A stretch of DNA of 26,385 nt from a virus: positions 1 through 26,385 of the IMG/VR virus record IMGVR_UViG_3300025832_000055; one strand, 5' to 3'. The notes below the pieces were generated by a model that worked only from the letters and a program-made list of their open reading frames with translations, was not told the DNA's origin and searched no databases. Both the position numbers and the translations under genes were made by a program. Below are positions 3,836-22,028 of the stretch, in pieces; the stretch's first letter is position 1, and each line of letters starts with the position of its first letter.

Positions 3836-4225
3836 TTAATTTATTATTACGTATTCGTTTGTAGTGTTATTTTTAACGTACTTAGTATTATTGTGTATAG
3901 ATACACTATTTGCATCTACATCTGTAGCGTAAGCTTTTCCTCTGTAAACTACTACACCATCTAAAGTAGCTTTAATCGCATAGAAAGCATTATTTTCTAA
4001 AGTTAACCCATCTGTATAGAAATCTGCAGAAAGTCTCTGAGAATAGCTATTATTAGCTAATAGGTTGTAATTAGTTGAAGGAGTGCTAAAGTTTACGCCT
4101 GCTACATCGTTACCGTCTTTAGTCATAGTCCAAACCAAAGTAGAAGCTACTGCTAATTCAGTAGATATCTTTAGGTTTAAGAATAAGCTTACAGCACCTT
4201 CTGTAGTTGTATTTATGTAATTCAT
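3836..4225 (-). CDS. Hypothetical small structural protein upstream of portal
   Basis: The 129-aa protein is Asn/Thr-rich, has no membrane segment and alternates hydrophobic and polar residues, suggesting a beta-sandwich. No family is recognised. It is the first gene after the terminator at 4257-4287 and has an exact copy of the late-block motif 8 nt upstream of its ATG. It ends 1 nt before the portal gene, so portal, connector and this protein are probably made from one message. A head-decoration or minor virion role is plausible but unproven. Confidence 0.7.
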   Translation of the reverse strand: MNYINTTTEGAVSLFLNLKISTELAVASTLVWTMTKDGNDVAGVNFSTPSTNYNLLANNSYSQRLSADFYTDGLTLENNAFYAIKATLDGVVVYRGKAYATDVDANSVSIHNNTKYVKNNTTNEYVIIN

Positions 4226-4256: not shown

Positions 4257-4287
4257 AAAAAAAAAGCTACCTTTTACAGTAGCCTTT
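4257..4287 (-). terminator. Intrinsic terminator after the tail-tube candidate
   Basis: On the minus strand, AGGCTAC pairs with GTAGCTT (7 bp, one G-T) around TGTAAAAG, followed by a run of T. It lies 22 nt after the stop at 4309. Confidence 0.88.
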
Positions 4288-4308: not shown

Positions 4309-4824
4309 TTAAGCACCTACAGTAATAGCGAAATCAGTTGCTAAAACGCCTACGTAGGACTTAGCTAATCCTTTCTCCATTCCTGCGAATACTAATTCAT
4401 ATCCACTTTTGTCTCCTAAAGAAGCTCCTGTACTTGTTGTAGCATTCATTTCTACACCAAATTCTTCACCCATAACCCATAGTAAACCGTTGTTATCTTC
4501 AATGATAATGTGAGGTCTTCCATAAGCTAAAAGCTTTACTTCTTTGTGAGTTGTAGCATCTTGTTTCTTTAAAGATACTGTTAAAGTTTGTTCTGCAAAT
4601 GTAGTACCGTTATCTCTTGAAGATGTTAACGATTGGTCAAATGTAGATGTACCTTTAAGGTCATATTTAAAAGCAGAAGGCGTAGTCGCCGTTACTCCTG
4701 TTATTGTTTCATCTGTTACTGCGAACCCCTCTGGAGCTCCATAGTTGATAAAATAGATAGCGTTCAAGCCTCCTACTGAGTCTTTACATCCTTCTAATCT
4801 ACCAGCTGAAATATTGCAAGCCAT
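4309..4824 (-). CDS. Probable major tail (tube) protein
   Basis: The 171-aa protein starts MACNISAGRLEGCKDSVGG and is rich in Thr, Ser and Gly with many short beta strands. The stretch LLAYGRPHIIIEDNNGLLWV is typical of a protein I have seen in Bacteroidetes siphophages in the tail-tube position. It sits just downstream of the major capsid gene and is followed by a strong intrinsic terminator, as expected for an abundant virion protein. The tail-tube call fits its size and beta-rich character; a capsid decoration protein is the main alternative. Confidence 0.55.
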   Translation of the reverse strand: MACNISAGRLEGCKDSVGGLNAIYFINYGAPEGFAVTDETITGVTATTPSAFKYDLKGTSTFDQSLTSSRDNGTTFAEQTLTVSLKKQDATTHKEVKLLAYGRPHIIIEDNNGLLWVMGEEFGVEMNATTSTGASLGDKSGYELVFAGMEKGLAKSYVGVLATDFAITVGA

Positions 4825-13792: not shown

Positions 13793-16207
13793 TTAGTCAA
13801 TTGAAGCCATATTCAAAGCGTTTCTCCTAAGCGATTGAGAAGTAGATACATCATTCTCCACTACATAAGCTCTCATAGTTCTGTTATTAGTACTTGCTAC
13901 TGTGTCTGCAATCATATTCTCACCTGCAGAAGTTGCACCTATAACATTAAAAGAAGGAGCACTAACAGGAGAAGGAGAAGCACCTCCGCCACCACCTGAG
14001 CCACCACCTATAGAGCTAGTTATACTGTTTAATTTTTTCTTACTACCTGTAAAAGCTTTCACTAAAGAAACAGCCTGTAACGCATAAGAAGCCATAGTAA
14101 TGATATTCCAAGGGAAACCTACTTTAGAAGACTCTGCCATACCTGAAGCTACAGCCGTACCTGTTTTAGCACCATCTATATTAGCCTCTACTTGAGCACC
14201 TTTAGCTCTAGCCATTAAGCCAGACTTTATGATACCCATCTTAGAAGCTAATTCACTTAATTGTATAGCTAATTTTATAGCTTGTAAAGCTCTAGCTATT
14301 GCTGTCTCTTTACCTGCTACTTCTGAAGCTGTATCTAAAACACCATACATTCCCTCTATCTTTGCCAATCTGTCAGACTCTTCAGCGTCTCTTAAAGCTT
14401 GTCTTTCTAAGTCTAAGTCTTCTTTGTCTTTTATTTTTTTCTCTTTAAGCTTATCTGCATCTTCTTTCTCCTTTATAGCGGTTAATCCTGCGTAATAATC
14501 ATTTATACGTATTACAGCCTCAGCTTTTTCGGTTTCATTTAGCTTAAGTAACTCTAACTCAGCTATATGTCTAAGTCTTTTACGCTCTATCTTCTCTAAT
14601 TCTGTCTTATCTTCTGCGTTTTCCTCTATAGTTTTAAGCTTTAAGAAAAACTTCTCTCTATTTGCGATTAATTTAGCTAAACCCTCTTCGTCTTTCTTAG
14701 TTTTATCCTCTACAAACGTAGAAGCTAACTTCTTAAGTTTAGTATCTGCTTTCTTTTGTATGTCTACTTGTCTAAGTAACATATCAGAATAAGCTTTATT
14801 GGTGTCGTTATTTCTAGCTAATTGAGTGTTTTTAAGTTCTAATATTTGCTCTTTTGCGTGTCCTATTTCATTTGATAACTGAGCTCTTTGTGCTAATAAA
14901 GACTCTTCGTCTACTAAACCACCAAAAAAAGGAACATCTTTTAATGCTAATCTAGCATCTATACCAAACTGCTGAAATTCCTTAGCTAATATCATTACAT
15001 TTTGACCTATAATACTAAACTGAGTACCTCCGTTTTTCATATCATTAACAAACTGAGTGAAAAAGTAACCTACTAAGTCTACTTTTTTCTGTAAAAAAGA
15101 TATACTAGATGTAACTAATTGTATAGAACCTCTAGCAAGTGTAGACATAATACCTCCACCGTCTTCTAGATTAAGCATAAAACCACTCCAAGCTGAACTA
15201 AGTTTAGTTAAATCACCGTTTAAGTTATCTAACTTATCTTCTGCCATCTTCTCAACAGAACCCCCTGCATTATCAAAGGCTGTTTTAAGTTTATCTAACT
15301 CATCTGTATTCTCAGCTAAAGCTATTAAGGAACCTTTTGCCCTGTCTCCTACTAATTCTTTTGCTATTGCTAATTTTTCTGCAGAAGATGTAGCATTTGC
15401 TAATCTTTTTGATGTTAACGTTAAACTTTCTCTATAAGATTTACCTGTTTTCTGAGCTAAGTCAGACATAATCCTTTTTAATTGATTACCTGCTAAAGAA
15501 CCTGATATACCTCTATTTGCTAAGACAGCTAAAGATGCTGAAGCTTGTTCTATAGATACCCCTACAGTAGACGCAATAGGTGCAACTTGTTTCATAGACT
15601 CTTGAAACTTAGTTATGTCTAGAGATGAACTTGCAAAAGATTTAGCCATAACGTCAGCCACTCTCATAGTATCTGAAGCGGTCAAATTAAATCCCCTAAG
15701 AGTACCTGCCGCAATTGATGCCGCATTTGCTAAGTCAGTACCTGAAGCGGCCGCTAAAGCTAAAACAGCATTAGAAGAGGCTAATATTTGGTCTGAGTCA
15801 AAACCCATTTTTGCTAATTCCACTTGTAACTCTCCTACTTGAGTAGCAGTAAAGGCTGTAGTTGCTCCTAATCTCTTAGCTGATTGACTTAAAGCGTCTA
15901 TTGCCTCTGGTGTAGCACCATCTCCTAAAACAGCTTTTAAATTACTCATTTGCTGAGCAAAGTCTCTAGATTGGTTTATTAAACCCATAAAACCACCAGC
16001 TAAAGCACCTATAGCTACTACAAAAGCTCCAACTCCTGAAGATATTAGAGCCATAGCCATAGCTTTGATACCTCCTGTAGCTAAATTAGCTGAAGTAGCA
16101 ACACCTTTAAGAGAAGTACTTAAACCTGTAGAGGCTACAGTACCTTTATTCATTGAAGTAGCTACATTTGATGTTACATTAATATGTACATTCCGTTTTT
16201 CTTTCAT
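13793..16207 (-). CDS. Tail tape measure protein (TP901-like)
   Basis: The 804-aa protein has a hydrophobic Gly/Ala-rich segment at about residues 47-80, then the PhageMin_Tail/TP901 core at about 80-340 (SNLKAVLGDGATPEAIDALS, GATTAFTATQVGELQVELAK, SIEQASASLAVLANRGISG). A long charged coiled-coil region follows at about 440-630, with a Gly/Ser-rich stretch near the C-terminus. Tape measures set tail length and help DNA entry; 804 residues would predict a tail of roughly 120 nm by the usual ~0.15 nm per residue rule. It starts 1 nt after the 46-aa gene. The adjacent chaperone gene expected just upstream is instead 5 kb away. Confidence 0.9.
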   Translation of the reverse strand: MKEKRNVHINVTSNVATSMNKGTVASTGLSTSLKGVATSANLATGGIKAMAMALISSGVGAFVVAIGALAGGFMGLINQSRDFAQQMSNLKAVLGDGATPEAIDALSQSAKRLGATTAFTATQVGELQVELAKMGFDSDQILASSNAVLALAAASGTDLANAASIAAGTLRGFNLTASDTMRVADVMAKSFASSSLDITKFQESMKQVAPIASTVGVSIEQASASLAVLANRGISGSLAGNQLKRIMSDLAQKTGKSYRESLTLTSKRLANATSSAEKLAIAKELVGDRAKGSLIALAENTDELDKLKTAFDNAGGSVEKMAEDKLDNLNGDLTKLSSAWSGFMLNLEDGGGIMSTLARGSIQLVTSSISFLQKKVDLVGYFFTQFVNDMKNGGTQFSIIGQNVMILAKEFQQFGIDARLALKDVPFFGGLVDEESLLAQRAQLSNEIGHAKEQILELKNTQLARNNDTNKAYSDMLLRQVDIQKKADTKLKKLASTFVEDKTKKDEEGLAKLIANREKFFLKLKTIEENAEDKTELEKIERKRLRHIAELELLKLNETEKAEAVIRINDYYAGLTAIKEKEDADKLKEKKIKDKEDLDLERQALRDAEESDRLAKIEGMYGVLDTASEVAGKETAIARALQAIKLAIQLSELASKMGIIKSGLMARAKGAQVEANIDGAKTGTAVASGMAESSKVGFPWNIITMASYALQAVSLVKAFTGSKKKLNSITSSIGGGSGGGGGASPSPVSAPSFNVIGATSAGENMIADTVASTNNRTMRAYVVENDVSTSQSLRRNALNMASID

Positions 16208-20176: not shown

Positions 20177-20749
20177 TTATTTTAATTTATTTTTGTTTCT
20201 TAATTTCTTTGCTATTTGGTTAGCTATATTATTAGCTATATCGTCTGCTATTGCTCTATGGTAGAGGTTCATAGTAGTATTAAAACGTTTATCGAATGGC
20301 TTACTAAAGAAAGCTGTCTTCTCTATACCTTTTTGATAAATAGACTTTGCTATAGCATACTCACTACCAGCGTCTAAACCTTTAGATTGTACCCATTTAC
20401 GAATAGGCTCTACAGGTACACTTTTCTTGTCTCCATTTCTACCAAACTTATAAGGTGTATTTCTATTCTTTATATAATTAGATTTACTACCCTTTACTCC
20501 TTTATCTAAGAACTCACCATAAGCATTCATTTCAAAAGACAACTGAGGCATACTAGAGCCTCCTGTGAATTTACCTGCTAAGCTTCTTTTTTGTCTCTTA
20601 TTAATATAACCTTTAATAGAGCCATATAAAGCACTCGAAGCATTGTGGTTTCCTTTCGTAAGATTACTCTTAGATTGTTGAACTACATACCTCTTAAACT
20701 TATCTAGAACCTGATAAGCTCTAGTATATTGACTCGTTATTCTTAACAT
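20177..20749 (-). CDS. Tail completion/neck protein, HK97 gp10-like
   Basis: The 190-aa basic protein has an N-terminal helix (YTRAYQVLDKFKRYVVQQS), then SLAGKFTGGSSMPQLSFEMN and AYGEFLDKGVKGSKSNY, followed by VPVEPIRKWVQSKGL. The EFLDKGVKG and IRKWVQSKGL pattern is typical of HK97 gp10-type neck proteins in Bacteroidetes phages. It would act at the head-tail joint. Its start overlaps the upstream stop by 7 nt (ATGTTAA), showing translational coupling to the tail-terminator candidate. The C-terminus is strongly basic (RNKNKLK). Confidence 0.72.
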   Translation of the reverse strand: MLRITSQYTRAYQVLDKFKRYVVQQSKSNLTKGNHNASSALYGSIKGYINKRQKRSLAGKFTGGSSMPQLSFEMNAYGEFLDKGVKGSKSNYIKNRNTPYKFGRNGDKKSVPVEPIRKWVQSKGLDAGSEYAIAKSIYQKGIEKTAFFSKPFDKRFNTTMNLYHRAIADDIANNIANQIAKKLRNKNKLK

Positions 20750-21204
20750 ATATCCATAGTGTTTCTAATAGCTACTGAAAAGTCTAATCCTACTCCTGCT
20801 AATTTGTCTTCAAATCTCTCACTAAAGAACTCTATATTTACATCCTCCTCTAATTGGTAACCATCTGAATGCATCTGACCTCTTGTAAGAGCTGAGACTA
20901 ATTTAGTAGCTACAGCAAACATACTATTCTTAATATAGTGCTCGTTATCATTACCGTAGTATTGGTCTGTCTGAGCCTCTTTAGACTCATCTACCATATC
21001 TAATAGTAATACACTCATATTAACAGAAGCCATTCCAGACTCTGCAGACATATTAGCTGTAGTCATTACAACGTGAGCCATTGGGAAAGTATTTTTCTTT
21101 AGTAAATCTATGTCAAATAAATCACCCATAGTAACAGAGTTAAGAAGTACATTGCCTTCTAATTCTGTTTTAATTGCGTCTGTAAGTTTAAATAAGTTAT
21201 TCAT
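20743..21204 (-). CDS. Tail terminator/completion-like protein
   Basis: The 153-aa mixed alpha/beta protein starts with MNNLFKLTDAIKTELEGN and carries FPMAHVVMTTANMS and NIEFFSERFEDKLAGVGLDF. This arrangement (N-terminal helix, a beta strand at MAHV, a final strand ending the domain) fits tail-terminator/completion proteins that cap the tail tube. It sits upstream of the gp10-like gene with a 7-nt overlap and 1 nt after the end of the frameshifted chaperone reading frame. The call is based on position and general pattern. Confidence 0.6.
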   Translation of the reverse strand: MNNLFKLTDAIKTELEGNVLLNSVTMGDLFDIDLLKKNTFPMAHVVMTTANMSAESGMASVNMSVLLLDMVDESKEAQTDQYYGNDNEHYIKNSMFAVATKLVSALTRGQMHSDGYQLEEDVNIEFFSERFEDKLAGVGLDFSVAIRNTMDIC

Positions 21205-21205
21205 A

Positions 21206-21945
21206 TTATCTTTTTTTTCTATATTGTAATCTTTCTATCTCTGCTTTTTCTTTTTCAAACTCTAAGTACATTAGAGCTTCTAAATGATTTACCTCTGTTA
21301 CTGCTTTAAATTTTGTGACACTACCCTTAGAAAGTGCATAGAGGCTGTTAAACCATCCGTATTTTTTGGAGAACTGTGCCTCTCTAGAGTAGTCAGACTC
21401 TCCGTCATTGTCGACTGTGAATAGTGCTGGGAAGCCTGAAGTAACTCTTTTACGATATGATAAAAAAAAACCACCGCAGATGAAGCGATTCCTAAAGGTG
21501 CTGATTTCATTATCTCCTGCCGTTCTATTGAAGCGTCATAAGTCTCTACTGTGTAGAGGTTACTGAAGCTCTTTACTATTGGTCTATACATAACAGACAT
21601 AGCTTTATGAAAAGACTTAGTCTCTTTTAAAGCCTCTTCTAAGTCAATGTACTCTCCTAGTGACATTTGAGATAAGTCAGGTATAAAACCGTATTTAACA
21701 CCCTCTAACTCAAACTGAGTAGTATGAGGTGTCTCCTGTGACAATACTCCTGCTATTTGGCTCTCTATATCTTCTGCGTCCTTTAAAGGAAACTTACTAA
21801 CTAAGTTAATGTCTACACCACAGAATATCTCTATAGTCTTATGTAATAAGAAGTCACTATCCTGATTCTCTATATTTATCTTATCAAACTTCTGAAACTC
21901 ACTTAGAGTTATGTCATTTATGTTAGTTGGTACACTTATAGTCAT
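21206..21945 (-). CDS. Tail assembly chaperone-like, -1 frameshift fusion product (GT-like, 246 aa)
   Basis: If ribosomes slip -1 on the T9 run (21462-21470) after Phe161, translation leaves the 215-aa frame and continues for 85 codons to the TAA at 21206-21208, giving a 246-aa fusion. The shifted part contains FSKKYGWFNSLYALSKGSV and a charged helical end (EFEKEKAEIERLQYRKKR). I have seen the (F/W)GW-S-Y-LA pattern in proteins of other Bacteroidetes phages. This frame has no ATG, GTG or TTG between its upstream TGA and a late internal ATG, so it needs the slip. It ends 1 nt before the next gene. Alternative: an indel error in the T run, in which case this is the only real product. Confidence 0.68.
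21298..21945 (-). CDS. Tail assembly chaperone-like protein, unshifted product (215 aa, gpG-like)
   Basis: The protein begins MTISVPTNINDITLSEFQKF and is mainly helical, with VKYGFIPDLSQMSLGEYIDL at about residues 83-102 and FHKAMSVMYRPI at 112-123. This matches a family I associate with Bacteroidetes siphophages at the start of tail genes. Its C-terminus (SSPKNTDGLTASMHFLRVVS) also looks like a known family ending, so the zero frame is probably used too. An exact late-block motif lies 11 nt upstream of the start, directly after a strong terminator. A lambda gpG-like role in tail assembly is inferred mainly from the frameshift. Confidence 0.72.
   Translation of the reverse strand: MTISVPTNINDITLSEFQKFDKINIENQDSDFLLHKTIEIFCGVDINLVSKFPLKDAEDIESQIAGVLSQETPHTTQFELEGVKYGFIPDLSQMSLGEYIDLEEALKETKSFHKAMSVMYRPIVKSFSNLYTVETYDASIERQEIMKSAPLGIASSAVVFFYHIVKELLQASQHYSQSTMTESLTTLERHSSPKNTDGLTASMHFLRVVSQNLKQ
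21462..21470 (-). other. T9 slippery run, probable -1 frameshift site
   Basis: On the coding strand the zero frame reads GTG GTT TTT TTT TAT. Nine consecutive T residues allow a T-TTT-TTT slip of one base back, changing to the frame starting with TTA TCA. Run length is also the type of feature most prone to sequencing or assembly error. Confidence 0.62.
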
Positions 21946-21977: not shown

Positions 21978-22005
21978 AAAAAAAGCCACCTCTCTCGAAG
22001 TGACT
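21978..22005 (-). terminator. Intrinsic terminator after the accessory block
   Basis: On the minus strand, a 9-bp stem (AGTCACTTC paired with GAGGTGGCT, two G-T pairs) closes a GAGA tetraloop and is followed by seven T. It follows the gene at 22029-22235 by about 24 nt and separates the small accessory genes from the tail block. Confidence 0.88.
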
Positions 22006-22028
22006 CCATAATTAACAAACAATTTATC

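Follow-up and report, generated by a model that had tools for sequence, protein, structure and literature searches.

A conserved T run in a phage gene family may set the ratio of two putative tail chaperone forms by RNA polymerase slippage between overlapping, selected C-terminal domains

Few recoding events in tailed phages are as widely conserved as the −1 shift of reading frame in tail assembly genes, which has been described as ribosomal. In phage lambda, the single tail-cluster gene G/GT gives two products with a common N-terminal part, and a −1 shift supplies the long product with an added domain (PMC5009743). Efficient slippage by bacterial RNA polymerase takes nine A or T residues, and in many genomes selection against A/T runs appears from length nine (PMC5009743; PMC1088944). 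Such a run of nine A/T lies in the coding region of Thermus thermophilus dnaX, where its length sets the product forms (PMC5009743; PMC1088944), while a conserved homopolymer joins two frames in IS elements and in Shigella type III genes (PMC1088944). In potyviruses, polymerase slippage opens the overlapping P3N-PIPO frame (PMC5009743).

The phage gene described here shares features with each of these systems. Its products, as predicted from sequence, follow the lambda layout: a tail-cluster gene, a common N-terminal part, a −1 shift and an added domain in the long form. Unlike lambda, it has a site of T9-T10 of constant length, without clear ribosomal stimulators, and its sequence is not detectably related to any named chaperone family. 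Moreover, whereas the lambda shift occurs near the 3' end of G, the zero frame here continues for 17 to 86 selected codons over the −1 domain. Slippage in T. thermophilus dnaX leads mainly to a truncated product; in this phage structural-assembly gene one selected C-terminal domain would instead be swapped for another. The IS elements and Shigella type III genes differ in gene function, and in the literature on their slippage we found no comparable long stretch with both frames under selection. P3N-PIPO differs in having an RNA virus polymerase, a GAAAAAA site and unrelated proteins.

We analyzed 26,385 nucleotides of DNA from a marine phage (IMG/VR record IMGVR_UViG_3300025832_000055, positions 1 to 26,385), which we refer to as the window; the features of the gene are all on the minus strand. 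The zero-frame gene (21298..21945) encodes 215 amino acids, consisting of an N part shared by both products (codons 1-161) and a tail of 54 residues (tail A). A run of nine T's (21462..21470), read as GTT TTT TTT TAT in the zero frame, is entered at codon Val159. The −1 frame encodes a different tail (tail B, 21206..21463) of 85 codons plus a stop at 21208-21206, and the step in synonymous rate described below marks 21298..21461 as the stretch read in both frames. Upstream, the −1 frame is closed by a TGA (21536..21538), and the third frame meets a stop four codons after the run. A gap of 93 nucleotides separates the zero-frame stop from the next gene, which has no assigned function, encodes 153 amino acids (20743..21204, ATG at 21204) and starts one base past the −1 stop. 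An earlier sequence-only reading of the window had reported the T9, the 215-residue and 85-codon frames and the gap, and we confirmed their coordinates. It had also claimed that the −1 frame lacks a start before a late ATG; indeed no ATG, GTG or TTG occurs until roughly 63 codons beyond the run, where an ATG stands at 21271-21269. Just upstream of the gene, a hairpin followed by T's resembles a terminator by pattern match only (21982..22007), and on this pattern the 215-codon gene may be the start of a transcription unit.

Relatives were drawn from IMG/VR scans, a scan of GTDB genomes, phage and plasmid records, and Bacteroidota genomes. The resulting set holds 368 distinct sequences with both parts of the gene, mostly from metagenome assemblies, and clustering at 70% identity placed the first 302 of them in 55 clusters. 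Two long-read "plasmid" records with T7 and T8 were excluded from the counts (see below), and L542, initially taken for a relative, proved to be a false match to an M23-peptidase-like protein. The hosts known from isolates are Bacteroidota. Included in the set are the isolated Nonlabens phages P12024L and P12024S, both with the run, and the isolate genomes of Flagellimonas onchidii and Galbibacter pacificus (Flavobacteriaceae). The run was T9 in 344 relatives, T10 in 23 and T11 in one, with none of the 368 having fewer than nine T's, and the two parts kept their −1 relation in 367 of the 368, as expected if the −1 frame change is programmed, which the sequence-only reading had proposed. That reading had looked to homologues for a conserved poly-T with both frames kept open, which is what the relatives carry, and had regarded homologues with one continuous frame as evidence to the contrary. 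The sole relative of that kind is L085, in which a T11 lets both parts be read straight through; it is closely related to the T10 phages and therefore does not overturn the −1 reading. Other same-strand runs of at least nine T's are rare: the 55 clusters gave only six in 309 kb, of which most fall outside long frames and resemble terminator tails. The window itself has a second coding-strand T9 at 4257-4265, between a gene for 171 amino acids (4309-4824) and one for 129 (3836-4225), and it is probably the tail of a terminator.

Among the relatives, the run was found in all three codon phases. The commonest form of the site is NTT TTT TTT TNN. A second form, NNT TTT TTT TTG, occurs in four or five separate lineages with GCT, GAT, GGT or TAT as the 5' codon (GGT again in L541); in these the second base of the 5' codon is not T, and the TTG completes the run downstream. 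The third form is TTT TTT TTT with C or G as the next base. On a maximum-likelihood tree there were four changes to NNT TTT TTT TTG and two to TTT TTT TTT. T's lost on one side of the run are regained on the other, and all runs reach nine (permutation P = 7e-6 for 55 clusters, which the test takes as independent although this is not fully true). In the near-identical phages L031 and L038, the T9 sits three bases apart and its length is unchanged (TATGTTTTTTTTTGG vs TATTTTTTTTTGTGG), as if run length were held near nine.

The RNA-DNA hybrid in transcription is 9-10 bp long, so about nine T's are needed in any phase, whereas the ribosomal slip heptamer T_TTT_TTT is seven T's in one phase. Because at least nine T's are kept in every codon phase, and seven would serve a ribosomal heptamer, we favor transcriptional slippage. 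RNA polymerase would copy the T9 faithfully in most transcripts, yielding the 215-residue, G-like protein. In a fraction of transcripts the RNA would slip on its template and acquire an extra U, giving U10 or some other net −1 change of equal effect; read normally by the ribosome, these would yield a 246-residue, GT-like protein with a different C-terminal domain from the same DNA. With U8 or U11, translation would pass into the third frame and end a few codons later. From the run, the −1 relation and the selection on both frames, which sequence comparison shows, we infer both that slippage is transcriptional and that it sets a product ratio. That the gene makes a G/GT-like tail assembly chaperone pair by programmed transcriptional slippage thus seems to us reasonably probable. 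We lean, with somewhat less assurance, toward the wider proposition that, throughout the family, slippage by RNA polymerase governs the proportions of the two chaperone forms and decides which of two overlapping, selected C-terminal domains is made.

The main rival explanation is that −1 frameshifting on the ribosome yields both products, as in lambda G/GT, with two Phe-tRNAs slipping back one base on U_UUU_UUU while the mRNA is unchanged, and we consider it unlikely, though a serious contender. A T_TTT_TTT stands in the right frame at the sites of all clusters, in every phase, and a longer T run could simply increase ribosomal slipping. Stimulators are also absent from some ribosomal −1 sites. 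In the known tail chaperone genes, −1 ribosomal shifts are the rule (PMC5009743). However, T7 would suffice for such a shift, and yet a run of seven or eight was found in 0 of 368 relatives, and the extra T's are kept whichever side of the heptamer they fall on. Nor did we detect a conserved stimulatory signal: across 55 clusters there was no conserved RNA fold within 60 nucleotides of the run (mean z −0.21 upstream and 0.10 downstream) and no excess of Shine-Dalgarno-like sequence at the site (match 3.44 vs background 3.31), while the window taken alone has a weak hairpin before the T run. The retention of the run and of both endings in hundreds of phages suggests that the two forms are set by the enzyme that copies RNA and not by the ribosome. 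Thus, of the lambda G/GT pattern proposed by the sequence-only reading, the −1 shift stands, but it probably arises through slippage by RNA polymerase and not at a ribosomal heptamer. A search of the open-access literature (subscription journals were outside its scope) found no description of transcriptional slippage in a tail chaperone gene. If transcriptional slippage is indeed the mechanism, a large family does the same job by transcription, and what is conserved would be the product ratio and not the ribosomal mechanism.

A second alternative is that only the long −1 product matters, and that the zero-frame tail is a by-product, kept open through the codon make-up of the other frame. Rates at first and second positions show the −1 frame to be more constrained than the zero frame, and the zero-frame tail varies from 17 to 86 codons across relatives, both of which would fit a by-product. 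Within one close marine group around L236 (L237-L316), the tail alternates between about 26 and about 40 codons. Given the −1 protein and codon usage, the chance of the zero frame staying open is 0.046 in the window and 0.05 averaged over 52 clusters. We compared synonymous third-position change between related sequences (101 pairs, 25 clusters), and found rates per site of 0.261 in the N part, 0.080 in the overlap and 0.213 where only tail B is encoded. Synonymous change in the −1 frame was thus 0.38 of its single-coded level in the overlap (95% interval 0.26-0.52, bootstrap over clusters). The lineages differ in zero-frame tail length and therefore provide an internal control on this step. 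Over codons 41-54, synonymous change scaled to the N part was 0.78 and 0.79 in lineages whose zero frame had stopped and 0.39 and 0.27 in lineages where it was open. Over codons 58-78, it was 0.69, 0.60 and 0.95 in stopped groups and 0.25 in the open group. Rates over codons 27-38 were raised in all groups and were highest where the zero frame had stopped. The step in synonymous rate tracks each lineage's own zero-frame stop, and because suppression follows the stop codon in this way, a constraint from RNA structure is an unlikely cause.

A by-product would not be expected to lower −1 synonymous change for as long as the zero frame is open and to let it recover past the zero-frame stop, and stop avoidance alone accounts for only 7% of the missing synonymous changes. 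The rate step therefore rules against a by-product, which we regard as very improbable. Amino-acid replacements in the zero-frame tail showed no leaning toward conservative ones (BLOSUM observed −0.31, expected −0.37), and so the support for the zero frame comes from rate suppression and not from residue conservatism. Judged by these substitution rates, both frames are protein-coding, with dual coding over up to 85 codons, which bears out the view of the sequence-only reading that both C-termini are real and share a long stretch of DNA. The overlap also serves as a clean natural case of dual coding, in which the position of each lineage's zero-frame stop determines whether a given codon is constrained or free.

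A third alternative is a switch at the level of DNA, in which replication indels in the T run would put the long product in frame in some of the genomes, while the rest encoded the short product. Long homopolymers mutate easily, and L085 with its T11 does read both parts in one frame. Nevertheless, this in-frame state was seen in only that one relative, and both endings are under selection simultaneously. The T10 lineages retain the −1 relation, and therefore the out-of-frame state is what is maintained. We reject phase variation of this kind on the constancy of the −1 relation and consider its probability slight. Errors of sequencing or assembly in the T run do occur, as T7 and T8 in the two long-read records of one contaminating relative show, but 26 gaps separate that pair over 10.5 kb. 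That the T9 is such an error has a negligible probability and is ruled out by the homologues: nine or ten T's are found alike in two isolated phages, in a genome at 413x coverage (Galbibacter) and in hundreds of assemblies made independently. The T9 in the window was also present in L002, a 99% identical contig from a different metagenome, and the run is thus genuine. The two excluded records, L396 and L397 (NZ_CP040811.1 and CP045836.1, 66-67 kb), carry the species names Escherichia fergusonii and Lysinibacillus pakistanensis. Their identity over those 10.5 kb is 99.7%, and each matches the phage gene at two places. Probably both come from a single contaminating phage whose assembly is a dimer containing homopolymer errors, and they were set aside because they represent the same phage with many indels between copies.

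Counting downstream from the frameshift gene, the fifth gene encodes the tail tape measure (13793..16207, minus strand; PHROG tape measure, E 3e-54). It lies on the same strand, not directly adjacent to the frameshift gene, and on this basis we place the frameshift gene in the tail cluster. The gene product had no match in a Pfam search, and its PHROG match is the unnamed family PHROG 32199. No named PHROG or curated tail-chaperone family matched at a convincing score; PHROG_166, "tail protein", was marginal (best E 0.0014, 6 of 23 members). A model of the zero-frame protein from the relative L057 was confident (pLDDT 85), with tail A, its least certain part, starting in a long helix and continuing into a second helix. 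Searching the PDB with the zero-frame model gave no convincing match, only common helical arrangements, and a BFVD fold search returned two annotated chaperones (probability 0.77 and 0.89, with weak E of 0.3-1.1). The −1 domain was modeled poorly (pLDDT 65), and its BFVD matches are therefore hints only. Some unnamed BFVD proteins of 240-267 residues match both the N model and the low-confidence tail B model; these may be distant relatives with both parts in one continuous frame. Taking the tail cluster, the two-product layout and the weak fold matches together, a role as a tail assembly chaperone is likely. The lambda-like chaperone proposed by the sequence-only reading thus stands as a G/GT-like product pair in a tail cluster, while the name chaperone is drawn from context.

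Flavobacterium phage 6H (L398:10352-10927), a weak fold relative, has no T9; the 3' end of its gene seems to change frame near short T5-T6 runs, and this may reflect another route or sequence errors. Gene callers currently split or truncate genes of the kind described here. The annotations of P12024L and P12024S divide the gene into two hypothetical proteins, in P12024L a "hypothetical protein" of 175 amino acids and a separate small protein. Over 1963-26239 of the window the gene order is unusual: terminase precedes the frameshift gene and the tail cluster to which the tape measure belongs, and the capsid and portal genes come last.
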